Shown: positions 32,890 to 64,000 of the stretch, piece by piece
How positions within the stretch are numbered: position 1 is the first letter of the stretch
How the letters are laid out: each line of letters begins with the position of its first letter
Source of the DNA: Solimonas soli DSM 21787
GTDB taxonomy: Bacteria > Pseudomonadota > Gammaproteobacteria > Nevskiales > Nevskiaceae
Direction: 5' to 3'
DNA: 64,000 nucleotides
Assembly (NCBI RefSeq): GCF_000474945.1
Contig: NZ_AXDW01000004.1
Coordinates: forward strand, 310,001 to 374,000
Notes under the pieces: model-generated
What the model was told of the DNA's origin: nothing
The model's input: the letters and a program-made list of their open reading frames with translations, nothing else
Databases searched by the model: none
Program-made: the position numbers and the translations under genes

Positions 32890-34506
32890 TCAGTGCGGTG
32901 GCGGCTGCCAGCCGCCGAATTCGGATTCGATGGCGAGCATGGCGGCGAGCACGATGTCTTCGCGCCAAGGCTGTGCGGTCAGCATCACGCCGAGCGGCAT
33001 GTGCTCCGGCGAAGTGCCGGCGCGCACTACGCCGCTCGGATAGCCGGCGATGTTGTAGGTCGTCGTGAAGCCGCCACCGCGCACGCCTTCCGCCGAGCGG
33101 TCACCGATCTTCGGCGCCGGTCCGAGCGCCGGCGGGCAGACGATCAGATCGAAGTCCTTGACCCAGGCCATCATGCGCGAGCGCCAGGCATCGCGCTCCT
33201 CGAGCAACTCCGTGAAGGTTGCGGTCTCGATCAACGGATAGTCGAAACGACGGTTCGGGCCGGGTACCGTCGTGTGGTATTTCTCGACCAGGCGCTTCTG
33301 CCAGGCGTTGCCGTCGCCTTCGCGCAGCCGCGTCGATAGATCGGCGATCTTCATCGCATCCGGCGGACGCGACGGCCGCACCGCGCAGCCGAGCCGCGCG
33401 AAGTAGTCGACGCACTTCTGCACAGTGGCCTGCATTTCCGGCGTCGGCTTCGCTGCGTCTTCGGCGAGATCGAAATAGTAGGCAACGCGCAGTCGCGAGA
33501 GGTCCACCCTGCGCGGATCGGACCATGGCATCGGCTGGATTGCGGCATCGATGAAATCGGGTCCGGTGACCAGCGGCAGGATCGTCATCAGGTCCTCCAC
33601 CCGGCGGGCGAGCGGCCCGACCTGCTGATAGGAATCGAACACGCCGCCGTAATCGACGATGTGGCCGGTACGCGGCACGCGGCCGGTGGTCGGCTTCATG
33701 CCGGCAATGCCGTTGGCATGCGCCGGACCGCGGATCGAACCGCCGAAGTCGGAGCCGAAATCGAAGGCCGAGCCGCCGGCCGCGACGATCGCGCCGCCCC
33801 CGCCCGTCGAACCGGATGTCGAGCGCGTATGGTCGTACGGATTACGCGACATGCCGTAGACGATGTTGACCGTGGTGCCGAGGCCGCTCACGCCGCCGAG
33901 CGTGAACTCCGGGGTGTTGGTCTTGCCGAGCAGGATCGCTCCCCGCGCGCGCAGCCGCGCGACCACGGTGGCATCCTTCGGCGGTATGAAGAACGCGCGT
34001 CCCTGCGTGCCGCCGGTCGAGATCACGCCCTCGGTATCGAACGAGTCCTTGATCGTCATCGGCACGCCGTGCAGCGGCCCCGCCCAATCGCCGCGGCGGC
34101 TCCTTGCATCGAGTGTTCCGGCTTCCGCTAGCGCACGCTCCCGGCAGAACTGCACCACGGCGTTGAGCTGCGGATTCACCGCGTCGATGCGTGCGTAGTA
34201 CGCCGCGACCGCTTCGGTCGCCGACAGCTCACCGCCGCGAATCAGGCCTGCGAGCTTGGTCGCCGACATGAACACCAGCTCGTCGTGCTTGTCCGTCGAC
34301 ACCGGCGGCGCTAACTCGGCGCGCGCGGGTTTTCCCCGGGGTCCATTGGCGCAGGCGGCGAGCGCCAGTGGCGCTGCGCCCAGAAGCGCGCGCCGCGCGA
34401 GCGACACCGGAACCGAACGATCACCTGCCTGGTCGTCGGCAGGAACAGCCGCTGCCGGGGTATCCACGGCTGCGTCATACATGGCGTTTTTCGCGGACGC
34501 TTTCAC
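32890..34506 (-). CDS. Exported amidase (amidase-signature family), lipoprotein-type
   Basis: 538 residues from GTG 34506, whose start overlaps the upstream amidase stop (GTGA); ATG 34482 is the alternative. A twin-Arg plus lipobox leader (SLARRALLGAAPLALAAC) suggests Tat export and lipid anchoring. The catalytic triad is present: Lys in MTIKDS near 152, cis-Ser in SGSTGGGG near 232, nucleophile in DFGGSIRGP near 256. It hydrolyses a C-N amide bond of unknown substrate. It belongs to the same subgroup as the amidases at 34503, 37989 and 39674 (shared KTNTPEFTLGG and VPRTGHIVDYGG). It is the last amidase before the efflux operon. Confidence 0.92.
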   Translation of the reverse strand: MKASAKNAMYDAAVDTPAAAVPADDQAGDRSVPVSLARRALLGAAPLALAACANGPRGKPARAELAPPVSTDKHDELVFMSATKLAGLIRGGELSATEAVAAYYARIDAVNPQLNAVVQFCRERALAEAGTLDARSRRGDWAGPLHGVPMTIKDSFDTEGVISTGGTQGRAFFIPPKDATVVARLRARGAILLGKTNTPEFTLGGVSGLGTTVNIVYGMSRNPYDHTRSTSGSTGGGGAIVAAGGSAFDFGSDFGGSIRGPAHANGIAGMKPTTGRVPRTGHIVDYGGVFDSYQQVGPLARRVEDLMTILPLVTGPDFIDAAIQPMPWSDPRRVDLSRLRVAYYFDLAEDAAKPTPEMQATVQKCVDYFARLGCAVRPSRPPDAMKIADLSTRLREGDGNAWQKRLVEKYHTTVPGPNRRFDYPLIETATFTELLEERDAWRSRMMAWVKDFDLIVCPPALGPAPKIGDRSAEGVRGGGFTTTYNIAGYPSGVVRAGTSPEHMPLGVMLTAQPWREDIVLAAMLAIESEFGGWQPPPH

Positions 34507-36026
34507 AGTTTCGGTCTCTGGTAGCCGCCGACGGTCGCCTCGATGAACGCCGCCGCGGCCAGCGCGACGTCTTCGCGCATCGGCTTGGCGATGAACTGCA
34601 CACCAATCGGCAAGCCGTCCGGCGACCAGCCCGCACGCACGACCGCACCGGGCCATCCGGTGTTGTTGAAGACCGGCGTGTAACCGTAATTGCCCGGTTC
34701 CGGCACCATGGCCTTCGGCTCGGCCGGCCACGGCTGCGCCGGTGCCCGGTCGGCCGGACAGATCACGAGGTCGTAGGCCGAAAACCATTGCAGGAACTTG
34801 GAGCGGTTGGCGTCCATCGCCTCGGCCAGGCGCGTGAACTCCGGTGTCTTCACCGTAGGCGCCGGCCTTAGATTGATGACTGGCGAGGTCTTGCTCGTCC
34901 CGTATTTCTTGAGCAGGCGCTTCACCCAAGCACGACCGTCGGCGGTACTCAGTGCCTGGCGAATGTCGCTGGACTCGCGGATCAGCGCTGCGGGGCAATC
35001 CTCGACGACGCCGGCGCCGAGCGAGCGGAACTGCGCGACGACCCGGCGCACGGCGGCGTCGGTCTCAGCCGTCGGCGCCTTCGTGCTGCCGTTGTTGACG
35101 AAGTACGCGATGCGCATGGCCTTCAGATCGACGGTCGACGGCGACAGCCACGGCGCCGGCACGATCGCCGCGTCGACGTAGTCGGGCCCGGCGATGACCG
35201 AAGCGATGAGCTCCAGGTCTTCCGTCCAGCGCGCCAACGGCCCGACGACCTGGAAGGGATCGAAGTAGCCGCCGTAGTCGATGATGTGACCGGTGCGTGG
35301 CACCCGGCCCGTCGACGGCTTGAGGCCGGCGATGCCGCAGAAATGCGCAGGCCCGCGGATCGATCCGCCGAAGTCGGTGCCGATGTCGAAGCTGGATCCT
35401 CCGGCCGCGATGATCGACGCGCCGCCGCCCGTCGAACCACCCGGTTGATAGCCGTGCTTGTAGGGGTTGTGCGTCTTGCCGTAGATCAGGTTGGTCGTCA
35501 TGCCGGACAGCGTCAGCTCCGGCGTGTTGGTCTTGCCCATGACGATGGCACCCGCGGCGCGCACGCGTGCCACCGCGGTGGCGTCCCTGTCGGGGACGTA
35601 GTTGCGGCGGCCAAGCGTGCCGCCGGTGGTTCGAACGCCGGCAGTGGCGAGCGAATCCTTGATCGTGCACGGCACGCCGTGCAGCGGACCGATGCGCTGG
35701 CCGCGCGCCAGCAGGGCGTCGGCCTGTCGCGCTTCCTGCAAGGCGCGCTCGGCGATCGGGTACACCACGGCATTGAGCTGGCCGTTCACCGCATCGATGC
35801 GCTTGAGGTAAGCCTGTACCGCTTCGACGGCCGACAGGCGCCTGGATGCGATGAGCGCCGCAATGCGCTTCGCGGAAGTGAAGTTCAGGTCGTCCGGAAT
35901 GCGCGGCCCCGCCAGCTGCGCCTCGGCTCGCAGGCTTGCGGCGAAGCTCGCGGAGGCGGCGCCGGCTGCGGCCAACTCGGCGAGGAAGCGCCGACGTGAA
36001 CGCGGAAGTCTCAGCAAAGAATCCAT
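34503..36026 (-). CDS. Tat-exported amidase (amidase-signature family)
   Basis: 507 residues from ATG 36026. The Tat leader RSRRRFLAELAAAGAASASF is clear. Lys of CTIKDS lies near 123, cis-Ser of GGSTGGGA near 197 and the nucleophile of DFGGSIRGP near 220. It belongs to the RTGHIIDYGG subgroup. It is divergent from the amidase at 36207, with 180 bp between for two promoters, and coupled by overlap to the next amidase downstream. The substrate is unknown; periplasmic location is inferred from the leader. Confidence 0.93.
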   Translation of the reverse strand: MDSLLRLPRSRRRFLAELAAAGAASASFAASLRAEAQLAGPRIPDDLNFTSAKRIAALIASRRLSAVEAVQAYLKRIDAVNGQLNAVVYPIAERALQEARQADALLARGQRIGPLHGVPCTIKDSLATAGVRTTGGTLGRRNYVPDRDATAVARVRAAGAIVMGKTNTPELTLSGMTTNLIYGKTHNPYKHGYQPGGSTGGGASIIAAGGSSFDIGTDFGGSIRGPAHFCGIAGLKPSTGRVPRTGHIIDYGGYFDPFQVVGPLARWTEDLELIASVIAGPDYVDAAIVPAPWLSPSTVDLKAMRIAYFVNNGSTKAPTAETDAAVRRVVAQFRSLGAGVVEDCPAALIRESSDIRQALSTADGRAWVKRLLKKYGTSKTSPVINLRPAPTVKTPEFTRLAEAMDANRSKFLQWFSAYDLVICPADRAPAQPWPAEPKAMVPEPGNYGYTPVFNNTGWPGAVVRAGWSPDGLPIGVQFIAKPMREDVALAAAAFIEATVGGYQRPKL

Positions 36027-36206
36027 AGGGCCGTCTGACGAAGCGTGGTCAGGGAGGTTCACCGCACGCCGCAGGCGCCGCTGCTCCCTTTCGCTATCAG
36101 ACGGCGCGCCGGCGCGATCCCCCACCTGCCGTCGCATCGCCGGGTCGGGCGCGGCGTGCGGCGGACGTCTTCATCGATGAGCCTGAGTTCGAACGGAGCC
36201 CCGCCG

Positions 36207-37805
36207 ATGAAGCTTTCCCCTGTCCTGCGTCCACTGGCGCTTGCCGCCGCCCTGCTGTTCAACGCTGAGGCGCACGCCCTGGCGATAGAAGAAGCGAGCA
36301 TCGCCGATATTCAGGCCGCCTACCGCAGCGGCGAACTGAGCACCCATGAAGTCGTCGCCGCCTATCTCGCGCGCGTCTCTGCCTACGACAAGCGCGGCCC
36401 GTATCTGAACTCGATCATCAGCCTCAACCCGCGGGCACTCGAAGATGCGGACCGCCTTGACGCCGCCTATCGCGCCAGCGGCAGGTTCAGCGGTCCGCTG
36501 CACGGCATCCCGGTACTCGTGAAGGATTGCATCGACGCCGCCGGCATGCCGCTGACCGCCGGCTTCCAGGGCTGGAAGCACTGGTTCCCGGCCCGCGACG
36601 CGACGCTGGTCGAAAAGATCAAGGCCGCCGGCGGCATCGTGCTCGGCAAGGCGTCGCTGTCCGAGTTCACCAACGGCGGCGGCGACAACATCAACTCCGT
36701 GCTGCCCGGCTTCGCGCGCAACCCGTATAACACGGCTTACGCGACCGGCGGCTCCTCGGGCGGCACCGGCGCGGGCATTGCCGCGAGCTTCGCCACGGTC
36801 GGCATTGGCACCGACACCGGCGGCTCGGTGCGCATGCCGTCGGCGCACAACGCGCTGGTCGGCCTGCGCCCGACCGTGGGGCTGGTCTCGCGCGACGGCA
36901 TCCAGCCGAACAACAGCGTGCGAGATACCGCGGGTCCGATGGCGCGCAGCGTCGCCGACCTGGCCGTGCTGCTCGACGCCATCGTCGGCGTCGACGCGCG
37001 CGATCCCGTCACGGCGCGCGCCAAGGGGCACATCGCCAGGACCTACATGACGGCCCTGAAGAAGGACGCGCTCAAAGGCGCGCGGCTCGGCGTGCTGCGC
37101 CAAGTGTTCGATCCGAAAGTCACCGACCCGCGCATCATCGCCAATTTCAACGAGACACTGGCCGAACTGAGGAAGGCCGGCGCCGAGATCGTCGATCCCT
37201 TCCGCGTATCCGCGATCGAGGGTCTGCCCCGCGCGCCGCAGACGCCGGCGCGCATGAAGGACGACATGATCAAATATCTTTCTGCGCATCCCGGCATCCC
37301 ATATGCGAGCCCCAAGGCCATCGCCGATTCGCACCTCGTGCATCCCTTGCACCAGCCTCGCTGGGACGACATCGCCGCCGCCGGCCCCGTCGAAACGGAC
37401 GAAGCGACGATCAAGGGGCTGCAGACCGAGCAGGCCTATCGCGCAGCGTTCACCGAGGCCATGGATGCCGCTCGCATTGATGCGGTGATCTTCCCGACCT
37501 GGGCGCAGCTGCCAGTCCTCAACGGCGATCGCAATACGCAGATCACCAGCGGCGAGCCCGATCCCAAGGGCGGCGTCACCGGCCTGTCGAGCAGTCTGAC
37601 TTTCGTCGGCAGCACGCTGCAGTGGCCGGCGCTATCGGTGCCGAACGGCTATCTCGGCGAGGGCCTGCCGGTCGGCCTGCAGATTCTCGGCCGCGCCTGG
37701 GACGAGTCCAGGATCATCGGCTACGCCTATGCCTACGAACAGGCCACTCATTACCGACGCCCGCCGGCCAGCGTGCCGCCGCTGCCGCCCGACCTGAAGG
37801 ATTGA
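36207..37805 (+). CDS. Sec-exported amidase (amidase-signature family)
   Basis: 532 residues from ATG 36207, which follows GGAG by 8 bases; ATG 36177 would add ten residues. The Sec signal is LRPLALAAALLFNAEAHA. The triad is Lys in VLVKDCIDAAG near 106, cis-Ser in TGGSSGGTG near 183 and Ser in DTGGSVRMPSAHN near 207. It belongs to the subgroup with AYDKRGPYLNSIISLNP and a C-terminal YAYEQATHYRRPP, shared with the genes at 55146, 56789 and 60224. It is transcribed alone, away from its neighbours, and ends before a strong hairpin. Confidence 0.93.
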   Translation: MKLSPVLRPLALAAALLFNAEAHALAIEEASIADIQAAYRSGELSTHEVVAAYLARVSAYDKRGPYLNSIISLNPRALEDADRLDAAYRASGRFSGPLHGIPVLVKDCIDAAGMPLTAGFQGWKHWFPARDATLVEKIKAAGGIVLGKASLSEFTNGGGDNINSVLPGFARNPYNTAYATGGSSGGTGAGIAASFATVGIGTDTGGSVRMPSAHNALVGLRPTVGLVSRDGIQPNNSVRDTAGPMARSVADLAVLLDAIVGVDARDPVTARAKGHIARTYMTALKKDALKGARLGVLRQVFDPKVTDPRIIANFNETLAELRKAGAEIVDPFRVSAIEGLPRAPQTPARMKDDMIKYLSAHPGIPYASPKAIADSHLVHPLHQPRWDDIAAAGPVETDEATIKGLQTEQAYRAAFTEAMDAARIDAVIFPTWAQLPVLNGDRNTQITSGEPDPKGGVTGLSSSLTFVGSTLQWPALSVPNGYLGEGLPVGLQILGRAWDESRIIGYAYAYEQATHYRRPPASVPPLPPDLKD

Positions 37806-37818
37806 AGGCGTGTTCTCC

Positions 37819-37854
37819 CGCCGTGCAGCCGCGCAAGCTCGCGGCTGCACGGCG
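37819..37854. terminator. Bidirectional terminator-like hairpin
   Basis: A perfect 15-bp inverted repeat (CGCCGTGCAGCCGCG and its complement) around a 6-base loop, starting 14 bp after the amidase stop at 37805. It lies between convergent amidase genes. No T-run follows, so intrinsic termination would rest on the stem alone. Confidence 0.6.
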
Positions 37855-37988
37855 GCGCTTCGTGCCGGCGCTCATCAGTGCGCTCGCATCGCGTGGTCCG
37901 GCGCGTCATGCCGGCCACAGGCGACTCCGAAAAAGGGGCGCCGCATGCACGGGCGCCCAGTCACCACTCACACCACTGAGGAAACGCT

Positions 37989-39659
37989 TCAGATCGGCGG
38001 TTTCCTCCAGCCGCCGCTCTTGCTTTCGAGATGCGCCGCGACGGCGAGGCAGATGTCCTCGCGCCACGGCGCGGCGATGACCTGCACGCCGATCGGCAGC
38101 TTGCCGTCCGCCGACGAGCCGCAGCGCACGACGACGACCGGCCAGCCGGTGCTGTTGAAGATGCCGGTGTACGGCCAGCCGTTGCCGGGGCCGCCGCCCG
38201 CAGCCGCGGCCGCCGCGGCCGGATCGACTTCCTGATCGATCGGCTGCGCCGCCTTGCCGGCGACCGGGCACAGGAAGACGTCGTAGCCCTTCATCCACTC
38301 GAGCATCTCCGACTTCGCCGCATCGTGCTCCTGCCAGGCCTTGATCAGATCCGCGGAACTCAGCGGCTTGGCCTTCGCCATCGCTTCCTTGCGCGACGGC
38401 GAGATGTTGTGCGTGCCCCATTTGTCGGCGAGACGCTGATAGAACGCCCAGCCGTCGCCCATCGTCATGCGGCGGCGCGCGTCTGCAAGCTTGAGCATCG
38501 TCTGCGTCGGTGCCGCCTCCTGCACGCCGGCTGCCGAGGCCTGCAGCCACAGCGCCGCCTGGCGCACGGTCTTCTTGGTGTCCTCGTCGGTCGCGTTGCG
38601 GCCGATCGCACCATTGTCGACGCAGTACGCCACCCTCAGGACCTTGAGGTCGACCTTGGCCGGATCGAGCCACGGTGCCGGAGCGCACGAGACGTCGCGA
38701 AAATCGGGGCCGGCGATGATCGGCGTGATCAGCGCGAGATCCTCGACGCGGCGCGTCATCGGCCCGAGCTGCTGCCAGAGGTCGAACATGCCGCCGTAGT
38801 CGACGATGTGTCCCGTGCGGGGCACGCGTACCGAGGTCGGCTTGATGCCGGCGATGCCGTTGTTGTGCGAGGGGCCGCGGATCGAGCCGCCCCAATCCGA
38901 ACCGATGTCGAAGGCCGCGCCGCCCGCTGCCACGATGGCGCCGGCGCCGCCCGACGAGCCGGAAGTGCTGCGCGTCAGATCGTAGGGGTTGTGCGAGGAG
39001 CCGTAGAGCAGATTGCTGGCCGTGCTGATGCCGGACAGGCCGCCTAGCGTGAACTCCGGCGTATTGGTCTTGCCAAGCAGGATGGCGCCGGCCTTGCGCA
39101 CGCGCGCGACGACGGTCGCATCCCGCTCGGGCACGTACTGCTGGCGGCCGTAGGTGGCGCCGGTCGAGATCACGCCCTCGGCGTCGAGCGAGTCCTTGAT
39201 CGTCATCGGCACGCCGTGCAGCGGGCCGGCCCAGTCGCCGCGCTTGGCGCGCTCGTCGAGCGCCTTGGCCTCGGCGCGCGCGCGCGCATAGCAATTCATC
39301 ACGACGGCGTTGAGCCGGTCGTTGACCTCGATCTGCCGGGCGATGTACGCCTCGACGGCCTCGCTCGCCGTCACCTTGCCCTCGCGGATCAAGCCGGCGA
39401 GCTTGGTCGCCGACATGTAGATCACCTCCTTGCTGCTGTCGCCGGACGCCGGCACCGCAGCCGCCGCGCCCGTCGGCGCAGCGCCGCCGCCCAGCGTCGG
39501 CGGCGTCGCCGGCTTCGGGCCGCAGGCGGCCAGCGCCGCCGCGCCCGCCGCCGCGAATGCGGAGCCGCGCTGGAACAGTTGGCGGCGCGAAGGCATCCGC
39601 GGCGCTTCGTCGTCGGCCTCGTGCTGCCGCAGCTCGTGCATCGGTTCGCGATTTTCCAT
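37989..39659 (-). CDS. Tat-exported amidase lipoprotein (amidase-signature family)
   Basis: 556 residues from ATG 39659, with GGAGG upstream. The leader SRRQLFQRGSAFAAAGAAAL followed by AAC GPKP indicates a Tat lipoprotein, with a Pro/Ala/Gly linker before the enzyme. Lys of MTIKDS lies near 155; cis-Ser of SGSSGGAG and Ser of DWGGSIRGPSHNN follow. It shares the VPRTGHIVDYGG motif with its subgroup. It is the last gene of a probable six-gene operon running from 46382 down, 14 bp after the preceding amidase. An Ala/Gly stretch (DPAAAAAAAGGGPG) near the C-terminus is unusual. Confidence 0.93.
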   Translation of the reverse strand: MENREPMHELRQHEADDEAPRMPSRRQLFQRGSAFAAAGAAALAACGPKPATPPTLGGGAAPTGAAAAVPASGDSSKEVIYMSATKLAGLIREGKVTASEAVEAYIARQIEVNDRLNAVVMNCYARARAEAKALDERAKRGDWAGPLHGVPMTIKDSLDAEGVISTGATYGRQQYVPERDATVVARVRKAGAILLGKTNTPEFTLGGLSGISTASNLLYGSSHNPYDLTRSTSGSSGGAGAIVAAGGAAFDIGSDWGGSIRGPSHNNGIAGIKPTSVRVPRTGHIVDYGGMFDLWQQLGPMTRRVEDLALITPIIAGPDFRDVSCAPAPWLDPAKVDLKVLRVAYCVDNGAIGRNATDEDTKKTVRQAALWLQASAAGVQEAAPTQTMLKLADARRRMTMGDGWAFYQRLADKWGTHNISPSRKEAMAKAKPLSSADLIKAWQEHDAAKSEMLEWMKGYDVFLCPVAGKAAQPIDQEVDPAAAAAAAGGGPGNGWPYTGIFNSTGWPVVVVRCGSSADGKLPIGVQVIAAPWREDICLAVAAHLESKSGGWRKPPI

Positions 39660-39673
39660 TGCATTCCTCCCGT

Positions 39674-41227
39674 TCAGATCGACGGCGCGATCCAGCCGCC
39701 CGTCTGCTTCTCGATGTGCGCCAGCGCCGCGAGCACGATGTCGTCGCGCCAGGGCTGCGCCACCACCTGGATGCCGATCGGCAGGCCCGGCGCCTCCTTG
39801 GAGGTGCCGGCGCGCACCACGCCGGCCGGCCAGCCGGTCGTGTTGTACTCGCTCGTGTAGCTCATGCCGCCGCGCGCCGCGTCGCCGCCGGGCGGCGTCC
39901 AGTCCAGGGGAATCGGCGCGCGCTGGCTCGCCGGGCAGACGATGAGGTCGTACTGCTCGAACCAGGCCAGCTGCTCGCTCTTGATCGCGTCCATTTGCTC
40001 GCAGGCCGCGGTGAACTCGGCCGAGCTGATCACCTTGCCGTCGAGGCGCAGGCCCGGCGACGCCTGCTTGGTGCCGTGCTGAGCCAGCAGGCGCCGCATG
40101 TACTCGCGGCCGTCGGCGGCGCTGAAGGTGCTGCGCGCCTCGCCGAGTTCCTTCATCTTGGGCGGCGCGTCCTGACGGATTGCGCAGCCGAGCTTTTCGA
40201 AGCAGCCGACGCATTGCTTGACCAGCGCCTGCATCTCGGCGCTCGCCGGCACCTGGCCGTTGCTGACGTACCAGGCGACGCGCAGCTTCGCGAGATCGAC
40301 CGCCGCCGGATCGCCGAGCGGCACGGGAGCCATTGCCGCGTCCCAGCCGTCAGGACCCTGCAAGATCGGCAGGAGCAACACGAGATCGGCGACCCGGCGC
40401 GCCAGCGGACCAGTCTCTTGGAAATTGTCGAAGGGGCCGCCGTAGCCGACGATGTGGCCGGTGCGCGGCACGCGCCCGTAGCTCGGCTTGATGCCGGCGA
40501 TGCCGTTGGCGAAAGCCGGCCCCCGGATCGAGCCGCCGTAGTCGGAGCCGATGTCGAAATAGGCGCCGCAGGCGGCGACGATCGCGCCGGCGCCGCCCGA
40601 CGAACCGCTCGGCTGGTAGTCGATGTTGTATGGATTCTTCGTCAGGCCGTATACGAGATTGACGGTGCCCTTGCCGCCGCCGCCGAGCGTGAATTCCGGC
40701 GTGTTGGTCTTGCCGAGCAGGATGCCGCCGGCGGCGCGCGCACGCGCCACGACGGTCGCGTCCTTGCCGGGCACGTAATCCTTGCGGCCGAGCGTGCCGC
40801 CGGTGCTGACCACGCCTTCTGTATCGAACGAATCCTTGATCGTGAACGGCACACCGTGCAGCGGCCCCTTGGGCTTGCCGGCCGCGAGCAGCGCGTCGGC
40901 TTCCCGCGCCTCGGCCAGGGCGCGTTCGCGGCAGGTGGCGACCACGGCGTTGATCTTCGGATTCACCGCATCGATGCGCGCATAGCAGCGCTGCACGAGA
41001 TCGACGGCGCTGACCTGGCGCGCACGCAGCATCGCGGCGATCTCGACGACCGACTTCTCGAGCAGTTCATCGACCGCCGCCGCGAAAGCCGGCGCCGGGA
41101 AGCGCGCCAGGGCCAGCCCGCCGGCGGCCGCGGCCGAGGCGGCGATGAAGCGACGGCGCGAGAGCCGCGCGGTCGTCGCGGCTTCCGGCGTCTCCGCCGT
41201 GAGCGCCGCGCTTTCGGAATCGAACAT
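39674..41227 (-). CDS. Tat-exported amidase (amidase-signature family)
   Basis: 517 residues from ATG 41227. The Tat leader is SRRRFIAASAAAAGGLALA, with a probable cleavage site after PAPAFA. The triad is Lys in FTIKDSFDTEG near 131, cis-Ser in SGSSGGAG near 209 and Ser in DYGGSIRGP near 233. It lies 42 bp after the acetamidase/formamidase gene, and the amidase gene at 37989-39659 follows 14 bp downstream, so both are in the asparaginase operon. Substrate unknown. Confidence 0.93.
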   Translation of the reverse strand: MFDSESAALTAETPEAATTARLSRRRFIAASAAAAGGLALARFPAPAFAAAVDELLEKSVVEIAAMLRARQVSAVDLVQRCYARIDAVNPKINAVVATCRERALAEAREADALLAAGKPKGPLHGVPFTIKDSFDTEGVVSTGGTLGRKDYVPGKDATVVARARAAGGILLGKTNTPEFTLGGGGKGTVNLVYGLTKNPYNIDYQPSGSSGGAGAIVAACGAYFDIGSDYGGSIRGPAFANGIAGIKPSYGRVPRTGHIVGYGGPFDNFQETGPLARRVADLVLLLPILQGPDGWDAAMAPVPLGDPAAVDLAKLRVAWYVSNGQVPASAEMQALVKQCVGCFEKLGCAIRQDAPPKMKELGEARSTFSAADGREYMRRLLAQHGTKQASPGLRLDGKVISSAEFTAACEQMDAIKSEQLAWFEQYDLIVCPASQRAPIPLDWTPPGGDAARGGMSYTSEYNTTGWPAGVVRAGTSKEAPGLPIGIQVVAQPWRDDIVLAALAHIEKQTGGWIAPSI

Positions 41228-50250: not shown

Positions 50251-50563
50251 GGCCGACGCCGGTGCCAACCATCTGCGCGCCCGTCACGCCATCCTGCGGC
50301 AAGGAACGTGCTCTACCGACAGCCTGAAAGCTGGCGTGACCTCCATCACGAAAAATGAAATCGCGCCGATAGCGCGCTCACCACTGCACACGCGAAAAAG
50401 CGGGCCGCATCGCTGATGTGCCCGGCCCTTCTGGGCTCGCCGCTAACGCGATGCTGCCATGCTCCAGCCCGGGTGAATACCCGGAACCATGCAGTGCTGG
50501 ATCCGCATTCCACATGCCACACGAGCGATGCCCGACCCCGACGGGGTCGGGCCAACCGGTTGG
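50251..50563. other. Gene-free spacer with a perfect hairpin at 50530-50552
   Basis: No supportable coding in about 310 bp between the acetamidase remnant and the convergent large amidase. The hairpin GCCCGACCCC-GAC-GGGGTCGGGC (10-bp stem, 3-base loop) directly adjoins the palindrome CCAACCGGTTGG and the amidase stop at 50564. It is a likely terminator for that gene, although without a T-run. Confidence 0.55.
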
Positions 50564-56792: not shown

Positions 56793-58432
56793 TTCAGCGT
56801 GTCGGACGGCAGCGCCGGCGTGTACTTCGGCAGGCGTCGCGCGTGCGTGGCCTGCTCGAAGTCATAGGCGTAGCCGATGATGGCGCCGTCGCTGAACGCG
56901 GGCCCCATGATCGAGATCGTCACCGGCAGTCCTTCGGGCGTCATGCCGGCCGGCACGACGATGTCCGGATAGCCGGAGAGATTGGCGATGTTGTAGCCGA
57001 GGGCGCGCGGTCCGTTCGGCTTCGGATCGGCGGGCGGCACGATCGGCGCCGCGGCCGCCGGACTGCTGAGATAGACGATGGCGTCGAGGCGGTACTTCTT
57101 CATCATCGCGTCGACGGCGCCCTTGACCAGCGCCATGCCCTGCTCCTTCGCGGCGAGGTAGAGCGGATCGTCGAGGTCGAGCGCCACCGAAGCGGTGTAC
57201 TTGAAGGCGAATGCCTTGTGCGGGTCCGGATATCCGGTCTTCGGATCGTTCGCCATGCGCACGAGATCGTCGAGCGTCTTCGGATAGCCGGGCTTGGTGG
57301 TCTTCAGGTAGTCGGCGATCTGTTTCTTGAATTCCGACTGCGTAATGAGGGAGTAGATGTTGTCCTTCGACGCCAGCATGTAGTCCGGATAACGGAAGTC
57401 GACCGTGACGGCGCCGAGCCGTCTCAGGCTTCCGACGGCCTGCTCGAAGACGGCGTCGGCGCCCGGGTTCTGACCGTAGAAATCGCGCGTGACGCCGATG
57501 CGCCTGCCCTTGAGCGCGCCCTTCTTCAGGTAAGCGGTGTAGTCCTTCTCGACGCGGCCTTCGGCGCGCTTCGTCATGTCGTCGGCCGGATCGACGCCGG
57601 CGAGCACGTTGAGCGCCACGGCGATGTCGGTGACGCTGCGCGCCATCGGGCCGCCGGTATCCAGCGACAGCGCCAGCGGGATGATGCCGTCGCGCGAAAC
57701 CAGGCCGTTGGTCGGCTTGAGGCCGACGATGCCGTTGACCGACGACGGGCCGCGCACCGAGCTGTGCGTGTCCGTGCCCATGCCGAACTGCGCGAAGGCG
57801 GCCGCGATGCCGGCGCCGGTGCCGCCGCTCGAACCCGACGGACCCTTGTCGAGGTCGTGCGGATTGCGCGTCTGCCCGCCCAGCGAGCTGTAGCCGTTCG
57901 GCACCGCTCCGGCCTTGAGTACCTCGGGATCCTTGGCGCCGCCGACGCTGCCGCCGCCAGCCGCGAACTCCGAGAGGTTCATCTTGGCCAGGATGATGGC
58001 GCCGGCGTCGCGCAGGCGCTTCACGGTGAAGGCGTCGTCCGGCGGGACACTGCCCTTGAGCAGCCACGAACCCGCCGTGGTCGGCATGTCGAAGGTGTCG
58101 TAGTTGTCCTTCAGCACGATCGGGATGCCATGCAGTGGGCCGCGCAGCTTGCCGGCGCGACGCTCGGCGTCGAGCTGCTTGGCCTCGTCGAGCGCCTTCG
58201 GGTTGAGCAGGATCACGCTATTGATCGTCGGTCCTTTCTTGTCGTAAGCGTCGATGCGCGTGAGGTAGGCCCTGGTCAGTGCCACCGACGTCAGCGAGCC
58301 CCGGGCCATCGCCGCCTCCAGCTCGGGCACCGTCGCCGTTTCGATGTCGAGCGGCGCGGCCCGGGCCGGCAGCGCGAGCGCCAGCGTGAGCAGCAGGAGC
58401 GGCAGGAGCGAAGGGGTCCGCGGCAGGGTCAT
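56789..58432 (-). CDS. Sec-exported amidase (amidase-signature family)
   Basis: 547 residues from ATG 58432. The signal peptide is SLLPLLLLTLALALPARA. Lys in IVLKDNYDTFD lies near 108; cis-Ser is in SGSSGGTGAG and the nucleophile in TDTHSSVRGPSSVNG. The ending is YDFEQATHARRLPKYTPALP. It is the closest relative of the downstream gene at 55146 and resembles the gene at 60224. It sits mid-operon, 34 bp after the Tat amidase at 58467. Substrate unknown. Confidence 0.94.
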   Translation of the reverse strand: MTLPRTPSLLPLLLLTLALALPARAAPLDIETATVPELEAAMARGSLTSVALTRAYLTRIDAYDKKGPTINSVILLNPKALDEAKQLDAERRAGKLRGPLHGIPIVLKDNYDTFDMPTTAGSWLLKGSVPPDDAFTVKRLRDAGAIILAKMNLSEFAAGGGSVGGAKDPEVLKAGAVPNGYSSLGGQTRNPHDLDKGPSGSSGGTGAGIAAAFAQFGMGTDTHSSVRGPSSVNGIVGLKPTNGLVSRDGIIPLALSLDTGGPMARSVTDIAVALNVLAGVDPADDMTKRAEGRVEKDYTAYLKKGALKGRRIGVTRDFYGQNPGADAVFEQAVGSLRRLGAVTVDFRYPDYMLASKDNIYSLITQSEFKKQIADYLKTTKPGYPKTLDDLVRMANDPKTGYPDPHKAFAFKYTASVALDLDDPLYLAAKEQGMALVKGAVDAMMKKYRLDAIVYLSSPAAAAPIVPPADPKPNGPRALGYNIANLSGYPDIVVPAGMTPEGLPVTISIMGPAFSDGAIIGYAYDFEQATHARRLPKYTPALPSDTLK

Positions 58433-58466
58433 GGCGTGAAATCCCGGATGTGCGAGGTGGCGTGGA

Positions 58467-60215
58467 TCAGGCGACGGCGAACAGCGGCGGTTGCCTGAGG
58501 TGGAAGGCGGTGGCGTCCTGGTAGGCCTTGGCAAGCGCGAGCAGCCGCGCCTCGGCGTACGGCTGCGCCATGAACAGCACGCTGGTCGGGGCACCGCTGG
58601 CGGCAAAGCCGTTGGGCAGCGCGAGGCCCGGATAGCACGCGAGATTCGCCATCTGCGAATGGCGCTGGCAGGGGCTGGGAAGCGGCGCGTCGGCGCCTTC
58701 GGGCGGACGCGGCTCGCCCAGCGTCGACGGCGCGAGATAGACATCGACGCCCGCCGTCGCAGCAGCGAGCTCGCGCATCATGATCGAGCGCATGCGCTGC
58801 GACTGCAGATAATCGACGGCGGGAATCAGGCGGCCGGCGCGGAAACGGTCGGCGCGGCCGGTGTTGGTCATCTGCCTGTAGCGGCCCGAGCGCAGCAGAT
58901 CGTCGAAGAAAACCGCCGCCTCGACGCTGAGTTGCACGGTCTCGATATCGAAGTCCGGCACGTTCAGCGGCACGAGCGTCACGCCCATCTCGCGCAGCTG
59001 GTCGAGCGTGGCCTGGTCGTTGCGCTTCCAGTCGGCATCGCGGCCGGCATCGTCGAACGCGGCCGGCAGGTAACCGACCTTGAGCCGGCGCCAGTCGAGC
59101 GTCGCGTCCCAGTTGAACGGGATCCCGCCGACCGACAGATCGCGGCCATCGGGCCTGGCGATCGCGCCGAGCACCACCGCGCAATCTTCGACGCTGCGGC
59201 ACATCGGCCCGAGGCGGTCCTGTGTCCAGCTCAGCGCCATCACGCCGTAGCGGCTGACGCGGCCGAAGGTCGGGCGCAGGCCGGTGACGCCGCAGCGCGC
59301 CGACGGGCTGAGGATGGAGCCGCCGGTCTCGGTGCCGATGGCGAACGGCACGCAGCCGGCGGCGGTCGCCGCGCCGGGCCCGGCCGACGAACCGCTGGAA
59401 CCTTCGTCGAGCCTCCACGGATTGTTGGTGCGACCGCCCCACCACTGATCGCCGCCGGCGAGCTCGCCGGTCGCGAGCTTCGCCAGCAGCACGGCGCCGG
59501 CCTCGCGCAGGATCTCGACGACGCTGGCGTCGTAGTCGAAGACCTGATCCTTGTACGCGCCCGAGCCCCAGGTCGTGCGATAGCCCTTGACCGAGATGAT
59601 GTCCTTGGCGCCCCAGGGCACGCCATGCAGCGGACCGCGGTCGTGGCCGGCGGCGAGTTCCGCGTCCGCCTGCTTCGCCTGCGCGATCGCCACGTCGTCG
59701 AGCATCGTCACCACGCAGTTGAGCCGCGCGTTGTGCTGGCGCAGGCGCGAGAGATACATCTGCGTCAGTTCCAGCGATGTGACCTGCCGGCTCTTGATCA
59801 GCGCCGAGAGCCGGGTGACCGGCCAGAACGCCACCGCTTCGAGATTCGCCGGACGCCGGACCTTGCCGGTCGCGGCGAAGCGCGGCGGCCGGTGCCGGCG
59901 CTCGACCACCATGCCGGGCGTCAGCGGACTGAAGTAGAACGGCGGCGCGACGTCGTTGGGAATCGTAGCCTCGCGGATCTTGCGCATGCGCGCGAGGCTC
60001 TGGGTGACCGGCTTGATCATGGCGTCGATCTCGGCGTCGCTGAATGCGAGGCCGGCGAGCGCGGCAGCGTCGCGGATCATCGCGGCGTCGACGCTGCCCG
60101 CGCCCTGCGCCTGCAGCTGCGCCCAGAGCACGCCAGGCAGCAGGGTGCCGGACAGTCCCAGCGAGGAGAACACCGCCAAAAAGCGGCGGCGCGAGGTTTC
60201 GACCGTCCGGTCCAC
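58467..60215 (-). CDS. Divergent Tat-exported amidase (amidase-signature family)
   Basis: 582 residues from GTG 60215, preceded by GAGGCG. The Tat leader is SRRRFLAVFSSLGLSGTLLP. A roughly 100-residue helical region precedes the core (SVDAAMIRDAAALAGLAFSDAEID, reminiscent of GatC-like or AtzF-like extensions). The triad is Lys in WGAKDIISVKG near 204, cis-Ser in GSSGSSAGPG and the nucleophile in TETGGSILSPSARCG. It is the only member of its subtype in the window. It lies between Sec-type amidases with gaps of 8 and 34 bp, so it is cotranscribed with them. Confidence 0.92.
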   Translation of the reverse strand: MDRTVETSRRRFLAVFSSLGLSGTLLPGVLWAQLQAQGAGSVDAAMIRDAAALAGLAFSDAEIDAMIKPVTQSLARMRKIREATIPNDVAPPFYFSPLTPGMVVERRHRPPRFAATGKVRRPANLEAVAFWPVTRLSALIKSRQVTSLELTQMYLSRLRQHNARLNCVVTMLDDVAIAQAKQADAELAAGHDRGPLHGVPWGAKDIISVKGYRTTWGSGAYKDQVFDYDASVVEILREAGAVLLAKLATGELAGGDQWWGGRTNNPWRLDEGSSGSSAGPGAATAAGCVPFAIGTETGGSILSPSARCGVTGLRPTFGRVSRYGVMALSWTQDRLGPMCRSVEDCAVVLGAIARPDGRDLSVGGIPFNWDATLDWRRLKVGYLPAAFDDAGRDADWKRNDQATLDQLREMGVTLVPLNVPDFDIETVQLSVEAAVFFDDLLRSGRYRQMTNTGRADRFRAGRLIPAVDYLQSQRMRSIMMRELAAATAGVDVYLAPSTLGEPRPPEGADAPLPSPCQRHSQMANLACYPGLALPNGFAASGAPTSVLFMAQPYAEARLLALAKAYQDATAFHLRQPPLFAVA

Positions 60216-60223
60216 GTTGCGCC

Positions 60224-61843
60224 TCAGCGCGCGACGATGTCGGTCGGCAGGGCCGGCGTGTACTTCGGCAGCGCGATGGCGTGCGTCGCCTGCTCGAAGT
60301 CGTAGGCGTAGCCAAGCAGCCGGCCTTCGCTCCACGCGCGGCCGAAGAAGGAGATCGTCACCGGCAGGCCGCCTGGCGTCATGCCGGCAGGAACGATGAT
60401 GTCGGGAAAGCCGGTCTCGTTGGCAAGCGCCGCCGGGCCGCTCATGCCGCCGCCCGCGGCCGGCGCCTGACGCGCCTCGCCGATTTCACCCGCCGGGCGC
60501 GGCACGCTCGGGTAGATCATCGCGTCGAGCCTGTGCTGCGCGAACAGACCCTCGATCACCGCTGTGGTCAGCGCCAGACCCTGATTCTTCGCGGCGAGAT
60601 AGAGAGGATCGTCGATGCCCGGCGCCTTCGCCATCTTCGCCATGCTGTCGCGCTTCCACGGACTCGTGTAGGCGGTCTTCGGATCGCGAGCCTTGGCGAC
60701 CAGTTCGTCGATCGTGCGCGGGAAGCCGGGCCTGAGCGTCTTGAGATAGTCGGCGATCTGCGCCTTGAATTCGATGTCGATCATCATCGTGTGCATCGGG
60801 CCGATGCCACGCACGAGGAACTCCGGCAGCTTGACCGGATCGACGATGGTGGCGCCGAGCGTCTGCAGCCTGAGGATGGCCTGCTCCATCACGAAATCGG
60901 TCTGCGGGCTCTGGCCGAAGAAATCGCGCATCACGCCGATGCGTGCACCCTTCAGCGAGCCCTTCTTGAGAAACTTCGTGTAGTCGGTCTCGAAATGACC
61001 GGCGCTGGCCGCCGTCGCCGGATCGGCCTTGTCGACGCCGGTCATGGCGCCGAGCGCGATGGCGCAGTCGGCGACGCTGCGGCACATCGGGCCACCGGTG
61101 TCGAACGACAGCGCCAGCGGGATGATGCCGTCGCGGCTCAGCAGGCCGCGTGTCGGCTTGACGCCGACGATGCCGTTGGCCGACGACGGATTGCGGATCG
61201 AGCCCGCCGTGTCGCTGCCGAGCCCGAACTGCGCGAAGGCTGCGGCGATACCGGCGCCGGTACCGCCGCTCGACCCGGAGGGGCCGCGCGAGGGATCGTG
61301 CGGATTGTGCGTCTGGCCGCCGAGCGAACTGTAGCCATTCGGCGCACCACCGCTGTACGCGAACTCGTGCAGGTTGACCTTGGCGAGGATCACCACGCCG
61401 GCGCCGCGCAGCTTCTTCACCATGAAGGCGTCGTCCTTCGGGATCGAGCCGAGCAAGAGCTGCGAGCCGCCGGTGGTCTGCAGATCGTAAGTGTCGTAGT
61501 TGTCCTTGAGCAGGACGGGAATGCCGTGCAGCGGACCGCGCACATGGCCGGCGCGGCGTTCGGCGTCGAGCGCGCGTGCCTGCTCGATCGCGTTCGGATT
61601 CAGCGTGATGACCGCATTGACGTGCGGCCCCTGCTGGTCATACGCGTCGATGCGCGCCAGATAGGCGCGGGTGAGCGCCTCCGCGCTCAGCGCGTCGTCG
61701 CGCATTGCCGCGCCGAGTTCGGCGATGGTCGCCGTGGTGATGTCGAGCGCCCGGGCGGGCAGCGCAGCGGCGACGCCGGCCAGGGTCGCGCCGAACAGCA
61801 GCGCATAGCGCGAGAACAGAGGGAACGCGGAAGCGAGGCGCAT
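60224..61843 (-). CDS. Sec-exported amidase (amidase-signature family)
   Basis: 539 residues from ATG 61843. The signal peptide is YALLFGATLAGVAAALPARA. Lys in VLLKDNYDTYD lies near 113; cis-Ser is in SGSSGGTGAG and the nucleophile in SDTAGSIRNPSSANG. The C-terminus is YDFEQATHAIALPKYTPALP. It is of the same subfamily as 55146, 56789 and 36207. It starts 25 bp after the large amidase at 61869 and ends 8 bp before the next start. No strong ribosome site is seen, so translation may depend on coupling. Confidence 0.93.
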   Translation of the reverse strand: MRLASAFPLFSRYALLFGATLAGVAAALPARALDITTATIAELGAAMRDDALSAEALTRAYLARIDAYDQQGPHVNAVITLNPNAIEQARALDAERRAGHVRGPLHGIPVLLKDNYDTYDLQTTGGSQLLLGSIPKDDAFMVKKLRGAGVVILAKVNLHEFAYSGGAPNGYSSLGGQTHNPHDPSRGPSGSSGGTGAGIAAAFAQFGLGSDTAGSIRNPSSANGIVGVKPTRGLLSRDGIIPLALSFDTGGPMCRSVADCAIALGAMTGVDKADPATAASAGHFETDYTKFLKKGSLKGARIGVMRDFFGQSPQTDFVMEQAILRLQTLGATIVDPVKLPEFLVRGIGPMHTMMIDIEFKAQIADYLKTLRPGFPRTIDELVAKARDPKTAYTSPWKRDSMAKMAKAPGIDDPLYLAAKNQGLALTTAVIEGLFAQHRLDAMIYPSVPRPAGEIGEARQAPAAGGGMSGPAALANETGFPDIIVPAGMTPGGLPVTISFFGRAWSEGRLLGYAYDFEQATHAIALPKYTPALPTDIVAR

Positions 61844-61868
61844 GGACGAATCCGTCTGTGGAAGGAAA

Positions 61869-63869
61869 TCAGTCGCGCAGGGCGCCGAAGCCGGGCGGCG
61901 CGCGACGCGCATGCGTGGCCGCCTCGTAGGCGGCAGCGATGTGCAGCAGCGTGGGCTCGTCGAAAGGACGGCCGAGGAAATCGATGTTCACCGGCAGCGC
62001 GGCCTTCACCGGCCCGACCAGGCGCGTGCCGTCCTCGGCCTTGTCGTCGGCGACGCGGTCGTAGACCTCGGTCGTGAATCCGGCGGGCACCGAAATCGCC
62101 GGCAGGCCATTGGCGCCCAGCAGCGTCCAGGCCAGCGCCGAGCGGCCGTTGACGGTCGGTTCTGTCGGCGCGCCGAGCTTCGGCGCCGGCACGTTGCCGG
62201 TCGGATAGGTCACCGCATCGAGCTGCAAGCCCGCCATGCATTGCAGGGCGATCTGCTGCAGCGCGAAGCGCAGCTGCATGCGGCCCGCCAGGTCGAGCGT
62301 GCGCTCGGCGTTCTTGCCTTCCAGCGACTTCTTCTTGTCCGAGTAGCCGGAGCCCTGGCGGATGTCGCGGTAGAACGTCGACTTCGCGATCAGATCGGCG
62401 GTGCTCGTGATATTGGCGTCGCCGCGCTTCTTGAGATAGAGATCCAGCACGAAGCGGCCCTCGCCGGAGGAACGATCGCCGCCGATGCCGCGGATGGTCG
62501 GCGCCTTGCCGTCGTGCGGGAACAGCGCCGGATCGGCCGACATCGCCACCAGGGTCGCAAGCTGATCGGCGCCGGCGGGGAACAGCTGCGGATACTGGCG
62601 CGTGAAGCCGGAATTGAAGGCCGACGGCGTGTAGCGCGCGACGCAATCCTGGAACAGCGCGCCGCCCGGACCGGGATCGACGATCGTTGCACCCAGCTGC
62701 TTCAGCACCTCGATGCCGCGCTCGACGATCTCGATGCTCTGCGCGTCGGCCTGCGTGAACAGGCGCCTGTCCATGTATTCGCGCATTACGCCGATGCGCA
62801 CGCCGCCCAGGCCCGGCGTGGCGCTCGCGCTGCTCGCGTAAGCTTGCGCGGGCTTGCGGCCGACGCCGAAGGCAGTCAGTTCGTCCTTCGGATCGTAGCC
62901 GGCGATCACGTCGAGCACGCGCGCCACGTCGCCGACGGTGCGGCACATGGGGCCAACGCGGTCGTTGAGGAACGAGGCCGGCACGATGCCGGCACGGCTG
63001 ACCAGTTCCTGCGTCGGTGCCAGGCCGACGATGTTGTTGTTCTTCGATGGATTGCGTACTGACGGGCCGGACTCCTCGCCCACCGAGCACATCGTCAGAT
63101 TGGCGGCGACCGAGGCGCCGGAGCCGCCGCTCGAACGACCAGGACTGCGCTCGGTGTCGTAGGGGTTGCAGCTCACACCGCCGAACGAGCTGCGGTCGCC
63201 GCTGGCGTACTCGCCCATATTGGCCTTGCCGATGATGATCGCGCCGGCGGCGCGCAGCTTGCTCACGAAGCTTGCGTCTTCCGACGGACGATCATTGGCG
63301 TACGGCGCGTCGGCGCCGGACGTCGTCCGCATGTCGAAGGTGTCGTACTGGTCCTTGATCGACACCGGAATGCCGTGCAGCGGACCGACGAGCCTGCCGG
63401 TCGCGGCGAAATCGCGATCGAGCGCCGCCGCCACCTCCAGCGCATCGGGCATGCGCGGGTCGTCGTCCCTGGCATCCGTCATGCTGCGCGCCTTGTGCGC
63501 GTCGAAGCCCCACTTCTTGCGCGCGGCGGGACGAAGATTCAGGGTGATCAGCGCATTGACCTGTCTCGCGTCGGCGATGGTCGTCACCGACCCGAGCACG
63601 CCTTGCGGCTGATGCACGCAAGTGCCGTTGTACGCCCGAATGCGTTCGAGATAGGCCTTGACAACGTCGGTCGCCGTGTAGCGATGGGCGAGGATGCCCT
63701 GCTGAATCCGTTCGATCGTCGCCTCTTCGACCTGCGGCGTCTCGGCCGCCGCCACGGCGGAATGGAGAATGGCGGTACCGGCGATCAGCATCGTGGCGAT
63801 CGCATGCCGCAAGCGGTACAACACGGACAAGATGGAACGTGCAACGGTGTGCGCGGACGGACGGCGCAT
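61869..63869 (-). CDS. Large exported amidase (amidase-signature family)
   Basis: 666 residues from ATG 63869, preceded by AAGGAG at 6 bases. The hydrophobic signal is AIATMLIAGTAILHSAVAAA. It has the pre-core region VNALITLNLRPAARKKWGFD as in the gene at 50564, Lys in VSIKDQYDTFDMRTT near 172, cis-Ser in GRSSGGSGAS and the nucleophile in ESGPSVRNPSKNN. It ends THARRAPPGFGALRD. It heads a run of seven minus-strand amidases, at least the first five in one tight operon. The partial amidase upstream ends 87 bp before. Confidence 0.93.
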   Translation of the reverse strand: MRRPSAHTVARSILSVLYRLRHAIATMLIAGTAILHSAVAAAETPQVEEATIERIQQGILAHRYTATDVVKAYLERIRAYNGTCVHQPQGVLGSVTTIADARQVNALITLNLRPAARKKWGFDAHKARSMTDARDDDPRMPDALEVAAALDRDFAATGRLVGPLHGIPVSIKDQYDTFDMRTTSGADAPYANDRPSEDASFVSKLRAAGAIIIGKANMGEYASGDRSSFGGVSCNPYDTERSPGRSSGGSGASVAANLTMCSVGEESGPSVRNPSKNNNIVGLAPTQELVSRAGIVPASFLNDRVGPMCRTVGDVARVLDVIAGYDPKDELTAFGVGRKPAQAYASSASATPGLGGVRIGVMREYMDRRLFTQADAQSIEIVERGIEVLKQLGATIVDPGPGGALFQDCVARYTPSAFNSGFTRQYPQLFPAGADQLATLVAMSADPALFPHDGKAPTIRGIGGDRSSGEGRFVLDLYLKKRGDANITSTADLIAKSTFYRDIRQGSGYSDKKKSLEGKNAERTLDLAGRMQLRFALQQIALQCMAGLQLDAVTYPTGNVPAPKLGAPTEPTVNGRSALAWTLLGANGLPAISVPAGFTTEVYDRVADDKAEDGTRLVGPVKAALPVNIDFLGRPFDEPTLLHIAAAYEAATHARRAPPGFGALRD

Positions 63870-63956
63870 CGTTTCTCCTTCGCCGTCGAACGGCCGGGCT
63901 TTCACATCGATGAGACGTATGCGGCGGGCGGCTCCCTACCCTGCTGTCCCGCTGCC

Positions 63957-64000
63957 TCAGTACTCGAACTTTTCGCCGGGCAGCGCCGGCGTGGTCGATG
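63957..64000 (-). CDS. C-terminal end of another amidase, cut by the window
   Basis: The minus strand reads STTPALPGEKFEY then TGA (63957-63959). The preceding residues continue beyond the window. The ending TPALPG(E/D) matches the last residues of the Sec-type amidases in the run (YTPALPSD, YTPALPTD, FTPPLPGD). With only about 13 residues the assignment rests on this match and on position and strand. Confidence 0.55.
   Translation of the reverse strand, partial: STTPALPGEKFEY

Follow-up and report, generated by a model that had tools for sequence, protein, structure and literature searches.

A dense array of amidase genes with apparent export leaders in Solimonas soli, a candidate TonB-coupled amide-utilisation locus

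We analysed a 64,000-nucleotide stretch of the Solimonas soli DSM 21787 genome (contig NZ_AXDW01000004.1, positions 310,001 to 374,000), here called the window, which carries an array of genes for amidase-signature enzymes. Coordinates are window positions; beyond 64000 they continue along the same contig to its end at 77160 (genome of 4.19 Mb in 34 contigs). Genes were called with our own codon-usage script, not a standard caller, and it missed the gene for an extracytoplasmic function (ECF) sigma factor at this locus; starts and leaders were set by eye.

Gene content of the array

Thirteen complete genes of Pfam family PF01425 lie between 32890 and 63869, and a fourteenth reaches into the window by its last 44 bases only. 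An earlier note on this DNA, made from the letters alone, had described these genes as carrying intact Lys/cis-Ser/Ser motifs, and both Pfam and an alignment of the triad agree. It had also expected the island to continue past the window; the contig extension adds a fifteenth amidase, two TonB-dependent receptors (TBDRs), FecR and the ECF sigma factor. All 15 amidases score above the PF01425 cut-off (27 bits, as for PF03069). The genome has 20 PF01425 rows corresponding to 18 genes, two rows being second pieces, and 15 of the 18 genes fall inside 34 kb of the 4.19 Mb, with a naive probability of 4e-27. From the ECF gene through 50564, every called gene is on one strand with intergenic gaps below 300 bases. 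The features are as follows (Tat, twin-arginine translocation; ORF, open reading frame; aa, amino acids; export is predicted from leaders).

27067–28425, minus: outer-membrane efflux protein (OEP), which closes the pump operon; PF02321, 170 bits
28510–31614, minus: resistance-nodulation-division (RND) efflux pump, AcrB type; PF00873, 973 bits
31611–32579, minus: membrane-fusion protein (MFP) of the RND pump; PF16576, 84 bits
32890–34482, minus: Tat-type exported amidase, lipobox-like LAAC, start moved upstream by eye; PF01425, 299.6 bits; leader, triad
34503–36026, minus: Tat-type exported amidase, start placed further upstream by eye; PF01425, 318.5 bits; leader, triad
36207–37805, plus: Sec-type exported amidase, sharing 73% identity with a Verrucomicrobia protein; PF01425, 308 bits; triad
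37989–39659, minus: Tat-type exported amidase, lipobox-like LAAC; PF01425, 291 bits; leader, triad
39674–41227, minus: Tat-type exported amidase; PF01425, 313 bits; leader, triad
41270–42409, minus: FMD, acetamidase/formamidase (FmdA/AmdA) family, leader-like N-terminus; PF03069, 94 bits
42399–43517, minus: ASN2, asparaginase homologue, leader-like N-terminus, HGTD reads HGTN; PF00710; TIGR00520, 302 vs 314 bits
43559–44614, minus: ASN1, asparaginase homologue, leader-like N-terminus, HGTD reads HGTA; PF00710; TIGR00520, 347 vs 314 bits
44658–46382, minus: MEM574, 574-aa membrane protein with 8 hydrophobic segments, module marker; no Pfam or NCBIfam match
46601–47302, plus: broken long-type amidase, N-terminal part fused to a C-terminal piece; both parts nearest gene 52682
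47462–49762, plus: long-type exported amidase, 766 aa; PF01425, 123.6 bits; leader, triad
49979–50416, plus: FmdA remnant; PF03069, 25.5 bits, under the cut-off of 27
50564–52636, minus: long-type exported amidase, 690 aa; PF01425, 220.7 bits; leader, triad
52682–54973, minus: 763-aa long-type exported amidase; PF01425, 139.5 bits (query 52682–54865); leader, triad
55146–56792, minus: peptide-amidase-like exported amidase; PF01425, 316 bits; leader, triad
56789–58432, minus: peptide-amidase-like exported amidase; PF01425, 310 bits; best PDB match 5ac3, 338 bits; triad
58467–60215, minus: Tat-type exported amidase, GatC-like N-terminal extension (by eye); PF01425, 281 bits; leader, triad
60224–61843, minus: peptide-amidase-like exported amidase, query of the amidase-only search; PF01425, 323.5 bits; leader, triad
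61869–63869, minus: long-type exported amidase; PF01425, 231 bits (searched as 61869–63791); leader, triad
63957–65555, minus: fourteenth amidase, mostly past the window; PF01425
65596–67239, minus: fifteenth amidase, past the window; PF01425
67469–70045, minus: TBDR1, TonB-dependent receptor, past the window
70319–73183, minus: TBDR2, TonB-dependent receptor with STN domain; PF07660, 33 bits vs cut-off 28.4
73480–74490, minus: FecR; PF04773, 69 bits
74495–75130, minus: ECF sigma factor (longest ORF); PF08281 and PF04542
75137–75152, minus: sigma-54-like element preceding the ECF gene
75559–76827, minus: 422-aa ORF without Pfam match, past the window
up to the contig end at 77160, minus: partial ExbD-like ORF, named by eye, past the window

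The Lys, the first Ser of the GSS/GST motif and the nucleophile Ser are intact in 15 of 15 array amidases. An alignment of 220 rows, made up of the array, the array members of relatives and three S. soli amidases encoded outside the array, keeps the triad throughout; 21 of the 238 amidase ORFs of the fetched stretches were excluded from it as short or low-scoring. The Tat or Sec export claimed earlier is consistent with the leader-like N-termini found by eye in all 15 enzymes. At least five leaders appear to be of the twin-arginine kind, also by eye (32890, 34503, 37989, 39674 and 58467), and those of 32890 and 34503 require a start upstream of the called one. The LAAC in 32890 and 37989 is a lipobox-like motif.

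Three types were compared with the PDB. The core type has a peptide amidase as its nearest PDB structure (338 bits); we take the entries concerned, 5ac3 and 1m21, to be the exported peptide amidase of Stenotrophomonas maltophilia, specific for C-terminal amides. The long type is also nearest to peptide amidase, more weakly (154 bits), and the Tat type has no close solved relative, its best match being GatA (158 bits). None of the five array amidases searched reaches an NCBIfam amidase cut-off, the best scoring 464 against 534. By eye, the product of 58467–60215 resembles an exported GatC–GatA fusion; it falls in a clade with S. flava (genome G006), G012 and the Verrucomicrobia genome G451, with support 100.

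The pseudogene, the acetamidase/formamidase gene and the remnant of the earlier description are all present (46601–47302, 41270–42409 and 49979–50416). The broken gene resembles 52682 (81% over 571 bases), and 55146 and 56789 form a close pair, each of the two having its own S. flava counterpart. Recent tandem amplification is rejected for most members, which by tree and scores are mostly old, distinct lineages.

The two PF00710 genes had been named L-asparaginases. In the excerpt of PMC8256714 used here, bacterial type II asparaginase has the catalytic residues Thr, Tyr, Thr, Asp and Lys, with the Asp as proton sink. This Asp is replaced in 25 of 25 array asparaginase rows, by Ala, Ser or Gly in 12 of 12 ASN1 and by Asn in 13 of 13 ASN2 sequences, and the remaining four residues (Thr, Thr, Lys and the aligned Tyr) are present by alignment in all 25. 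Both non-array genes of the family that were read (in G451 and G025) keep HGTD; this motif reading covered one strand only and saw the motif in part of 30 loci. ASN1 passes the TIGR00520 cut-off (346.6 vs 314.3 bits), ASN2 stays under it (302.2 vs 314.3), and there is no other PF00710 match in the S. soli genome. The family assignment stands, but with the catalytic Asp absent the pair should not be named L-asparaginases on sequence alone. They may act on another substrate that supplies, or does not need, the Asp group, or they may be impaired enzymes; we favour the former because two different kinds of replacement are strictly conserved.

FMD exceeds the PF03069 cut-off (94 vs 27 bits) and falls below that of the formamidase model NF045496 (63 vs 500 bits). 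MEM574 has no family match in Pfam or NCBIfam, and its one-sequence structure model is poor, with a pLDDT (predicted local distance difference test) of 51.8. Elsewhere in the window, 8111–15877 is a single 2588-aa ORF that resembles a polyketide synthase by eye.

Co-inheritance of the array with receptors and regulators

The module was surveyed in 58 genomes of the family, counting matches above 500 bits for MEM574 and above 740 bits for TBDR1. Each is found in 13 genomes, with both in 12, one alone in 2 and neither in 44; below these thresholds, G065 has a 19-bit MEM574 match and 55 of the 58 genomes show weaker TBDR matches. At least 13 amidase matches are present in 14 genomes, namely the 13 MEM574 carriers and G041, and the other 44 have at most 9; counts of the rich genomes are lower bounds, with at most 17 candidates scored. 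Fisher p values, with kinship ignored, are 1.9e-10 for MEM574 and TBDR, 4.4e-12 for MEM574 and amidases, and 1.3e-9 for TBDR and amidases. The module is thus patchy but coherent across the family. Among ten other Solimonas members compared, S. flava DSM 18980 and G010 carry it. The TBDR type is rare in the class: at E 1e-40, with two candidates scored per genome, it occurs in 2 of 369 sampled genomes, S. soli itself and one partial match.

Stretches fetched from 11 family genomes, S. soli included, contain recurrent blocks: the TBDRs with FecR and ECF genes (in most), motor genes for DUF3450, two ExbB, two ExbD, TonB and TPR proteins (9 of 11), MEM574 (9 of 11), the RND/MFP pair (8 of 11) and the ASN1–ASN2 pair (8 of 11). 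Block names come from Pfam for representatives, with ExbD and TonB named by eye. No further gene family occurs in at least three genomes at more than 80 bits among 153 other genes longer than 100 aa within 6 kb of an amidase. The earlier note had looked to relatives for conservation of the locus; module carriers do keep the genes clustered, but the blocks are spread over two or three loci or contigs in G010, G023, G037 and G042. No motor block is seen next to the receptors of S. soli and S. flava, where the contig instead ends with an ORF of 422 or 391 aa and an ExbD-like ORF. The ExbD-like gene, named by eye, lies at a contig boundary in both (L001:14840-15160 and L011:22-450) and is possibly a repeated gene.

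Further loci were noted in these genomes. A second kind combines five amidases with a typical TBDR and FecR- and ECF-like genes (L018:7849-19745 in G006:C14 and L019:7713-19566 in G007:C18, the TBDR being assigned by Pfam for L018). A histidine kinase and a sigma-54-activating response regulator adjoin the second amidase cluster of G010:C28 (L017:1259-4479). In G012 a kinase (L009:18253-19653) and a regulator-like gene (by eye) are also near amidases, and a nitrilase-like gene (by eye) is immediately ahead of two further amidases (G012:C5:1024195-1028248).

Beyond the family, a search with the single amidase query 60224 returned 108 loci, of which 80 were examined. Eight of these have at least five amidase ORFs: S. 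flava, six Verrucomicrobia/Opitutae pieces from five genomes, and one marine gammaproteobacterium. In the pieces at hand, a TBDR1/2 homologue is present in five of the eight, the other three being amidase-filled contigs of 9–13 kb; of the remaining 72 loci, which have fewer amidases, two (L021 and L052) carry such a receptor. Most Verrucomicrobia-labelled array genomes are metagenome-assembled genomes (MAGs) by title; the Opitutaceae EW11 record (G452) is not so titled. Assembly chimera or collapse, which the earlier note had named as a possible cause of the array, is ruled out, as independent genomes hold similar arrays.

Whole-genome amidase matches were counted in 11 hand-chosen genomes outside the family. 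The array genomes have 29, 36, 12, 13 and 30 (Verrucomicrobia-labelled) and 15 (marine gammaproteobacterium). For comparison, there are 3 in an Opitutales genome where two amidases adjoin a receptor, 31 in a MAG with the title Rhodospirillaceae (G457), and 11, 16 and 8 in three array-less genomes. Because array-less genomes also reach high counts, the system is recognised by the clustering of its amidases and not by their raw number alone. In the array genomes outside the family, ASN1/ASN2 pairs occur in four (G451, G452, G455, G456), divergent asparaginases in three (G450, G451, G455) and ExbB/ExbD-like genes, with weak scores, in four (G452, G453, G454, G455). In G457, L028:1544-11611 has a peptide-amidase-like gene next to FecR, an ECF-like gene and a pair of TBDRs that are of a different type.

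A FastTree tree of the 220 amidases, of the kind the earlier note had proposed, gives S. flava as the nearest row of all 15 array members. Eight members (50564, 36207, 63957, 65596, 37989, 34503, 39674 and 58467) fall in clades that contain Verrucomicrobia rows and no other array member, with supports of 90–100. Ten of the 15 score higher with a Verrucomicrobia protein than with any array paralogue, at identities of up to 75%. The amidase set therefore looks like an old, conserved one whose passage between phyla is most simply explained by horizontal transfer. With S. flava as the closest row throughout and two thirds of the members scoring higher with a Verrucomicrobia protein than with a paralogue, the set points to a conserved division of labour.

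A sigma-54-like element ahead of the ECF gene

Sigma-54 promoters have the textbook form TGGCAC-N5-TTGCT and are defined by GG-N10-GC. Allowing at most two mismatches, all 8 receptor operons with upstream DNA then at hand have the textbook form ahead of the ECF gene, where about 0.05 matches per 250 bases are expected by chance. It is 29–259 bases ahead of the called ECF start in seven operons, and in S. soli it is placed just ahead of the longest ECF ORF. A strict form, NGGCAYN5TTGCW, has 8 matches in 1,478,956 strand-bases (20 family stretches), all ahead of an ECF gene. This form was derived from the same 8 operons, so that the independent test consists of only three held-out operons (G012, G042 and G040), and the operons are related by descent. 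All three carry the strict element ahead of the ECF gene, which brings the total to 11 of 11, each with GG-N10-GC. G036 and G044 are outside this count, as their contigs start inside the operon. The G031 operon has no amidase in the stretch seen, and that of G040 is on a 13.6-kb contig examined for the receptor operon and its element only.

The element is absent from the second amidase/TBDR loci of G006 and G007. Outside the family, the array pieces contain one strict match, in G457, not ahead of an amidase. Sigma-54-like sites inside the window show no excess (20 matches vs 24.8 expected). Four stretches were scanned for Fur boxes at up to six mismatches: those of S. soli and G010 have none, and those of G006 and G012 have matches with 5–6 mismatches, among which, in the matches listed, none is at an ECF or TBDR start. 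The sigma-54-like element suggests nitrogen control.

Proposed amide utilisation and its alternatives

The earlier note had proposed a periplasmic system for breaking down a varied amide pool. The export predicted from leaders, the breadth of the set and its clustering agree with periplasmic amide breakdown, but the locus exceeds a collection of amidases, as it adds genes for TonB import and ECF/FecR and the sigma-54-like site, which lie mostly past the window. One receptor pair with many distinct, conserved amidases fits a single family of complex amides at least as well as a varied pool. Because receptors, motor, ligand-sensing regulators and exported hydrolases stand together, we read the island as a TonB-coupled amide-utilisation locus, that is, as substrate-sensed and nitrogen-primed import with periplasmic hydrolysis of an amide-rich compound. 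We consider this moderately probable; it builds on features read from sequence, namely gene content, triads, leader-like N-termini (by eye), co-inheritance, cross-lineage orthologues and the promoter-like element.

Nitrogen shortage would raise expression of the ECF sigma factor through the sigma-54 promoter, and FecR would restrain the factor until the STN-bearing outer-membrane receptor meets its ligand. The freed factor could then activate the two TBDR genes and the amidase array, which form one co-directional block, together with the operon of Tat amidases, ASN genes and FMD. The ExbB/ExbD/TonB motor would power uptake of the amide-rich compound into the periplasm, where the amidases, in a fixed division of labour, the two modified asparaginase homologues and the FmdA-type enzyme would convert it to ammonia and carboxylates. 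The RND pump may clear leftovers such as de-amidated remains, or may indicate that the compound is toxic. The three unrelated hydrolase families are known to release ammonia from carboxamides. Because these families meet a sigma-54-like switch, and none of the proteins searched scores above cut-off as a peptidase, the most economical account would be that the locus scavenges nitrogen from a compound rich in amides.

Several points weigh against this account. Three family genomes break the association: G031 has the receptor operon with its element, no MEM574 and 8 genome amidase matches, none of them in the 20 kb fetched around the receptors; G039, in 230 contigs, lacks a strong TBDR match but carries MEM574 and 20 amidase matches; and G041 has 13 amidase matches with neither MEM574 nor TBDR. 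A Ramlibacter control without an array has 16 amidase matches, above some array genomes. In the pieces at hand, the Verrucomicrobia arrays have no FecR or ECF homologue of the probe kind and no strict sigma-54 site. Sigma-54 governs more than nitrogen, and NtrC-like matches are loose and found in only 4 of 8 upstream regions. There is no clear inner-membrane importer for the products, MEM574 being without known family; the TBDRs weakly resemble siderophore receptors; the missing Asp could mean that ASN1 and ASN2 are inactive; and the RND pump fits detoxification equally well.

Detoxification is the rival that survives best. The enzymes would destroy amide antibiotics or peptide toxins in the periplasm, the pump would expel the remains, and the TBDRs would be the entry route or sensors. 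The RND pump and OEP do adjoin the array, the RND/MFP pair recurs in the family as given above, and TolC-like proteins (78 and 81 bits to the window OEP) are found beside two Verrucomicrobia arrays. However, motor genes and two TBDRs favour uptake, a sigma-54-like site on the master regulator suits nutrition better, and the enzyme set is very large for resistance; we regard detoxification as unlikely.

Slightly less probable still is iron acquisition, with TBDRs importing xenosiderophores and amidases opening the amide or hydroxamate backbone to free the metal. The ECF-FecR-TBDR order is the classic iron-signalling layout according to a portion of PMC1790865, and TBDR1 is nearest to siderophore receptors (PDB enantio-pyochelin receptor, 46 bits; TIGR01783, 92 vs 223 bits). 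These TBDR scores are under the family cut-offs, however, the four scanned stretches have no convincing Fur box, and a sigma-54-like element precedes the ECF gene instead.

In a third rival, the locus would be a plain peptide scavenger, with duplicated peptide amidases that need no dedicated import or control and with incidental neighbours. It draws on the Stenotrophomonas peptide amidase as the core type's best PDB match, but it is just as doubtful and largely refuted, since within the family the neighbours co-occur far more often than chance predicts, other lineages have them too, and the members are mostly old separate lineages and not fresh tandem copies.

If the amide-utilisation reading holds, bacteria of two or more phyla have in common a dedicated system that imports and hydrolyses an amide-rich compound, and the organic nitrogen source of these bacteria becomes testable. 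It would also provide some 15 amidases, apparently exported, whose specificities are conserved and presumably differ from one another, and an altered active site on the asparaginase fold. The parts are ordinary; their combination was not found described in the open-access literature, a search that did not cover most subscription journals and bioRxiv preprints, which is weak evidence of novelty. A broader proposal, which we see as evenly balanced between right and wrong, is an undescribed class of TonB-coupled locus: a nitrogen counterpart of the polysaccharide utilisation loci (PULs), sigma-54-primed and ligand-triggered, with an enzyme set exchanged between Gammaproteobacteria and Verrucomicrobia and asparaginase homologues of new amide chemistry, directed at one abundant amide-rich natural product.

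The closest known layout is that of the Xanthomonas carbohydrate utilisation loci containing TBDRs (CUT loci), described in passages of PMC1790865 as TBDRs with degradative enzymes and regulators, common to unrelated aquatic bacteria. As in a CUT locus or a PUL of Bacteroidetes, TBDR genes adjoin degradative enzymes, with regulators. Unlike these, the island combines three families of amide hydrolase with an RND pump and with ECF/FecR genes that have a sigma-54-like site, and in 9 of the 11 family genomes fetched the motor genes are within the same locus. No carbohydrate-degrading enzyme or sugar regulator is found among the proteins searched from the island or its relatives, a search that did not include most of the relatives' accessory genes. 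Because no carbohydrate enzyme was found, the island, on our analysis, resembles a CUT locus or PUL in its working but is not a member.

The FecIRA surface-signalling system has the same genes in the same order (ECF sigma factor, FecR and STN-bearing TBDR); here, by contrast, the signalling genes sit on amidases, a sigma-54-like element precedes the ECF gene, and S. soli has no Fur site in the locus. ASN1 and ASN2 share the family and four of five catalytic residues with type II L-asparaginase, and ASN1 passes TIGR00520; they differ in the replaced Asp and, for ASN2, in missing that model. The S. maltophilia peptide amidase is the best solved match of the core type within the amidase-signature family, but at this locus that type is one within a set of 15 genes.

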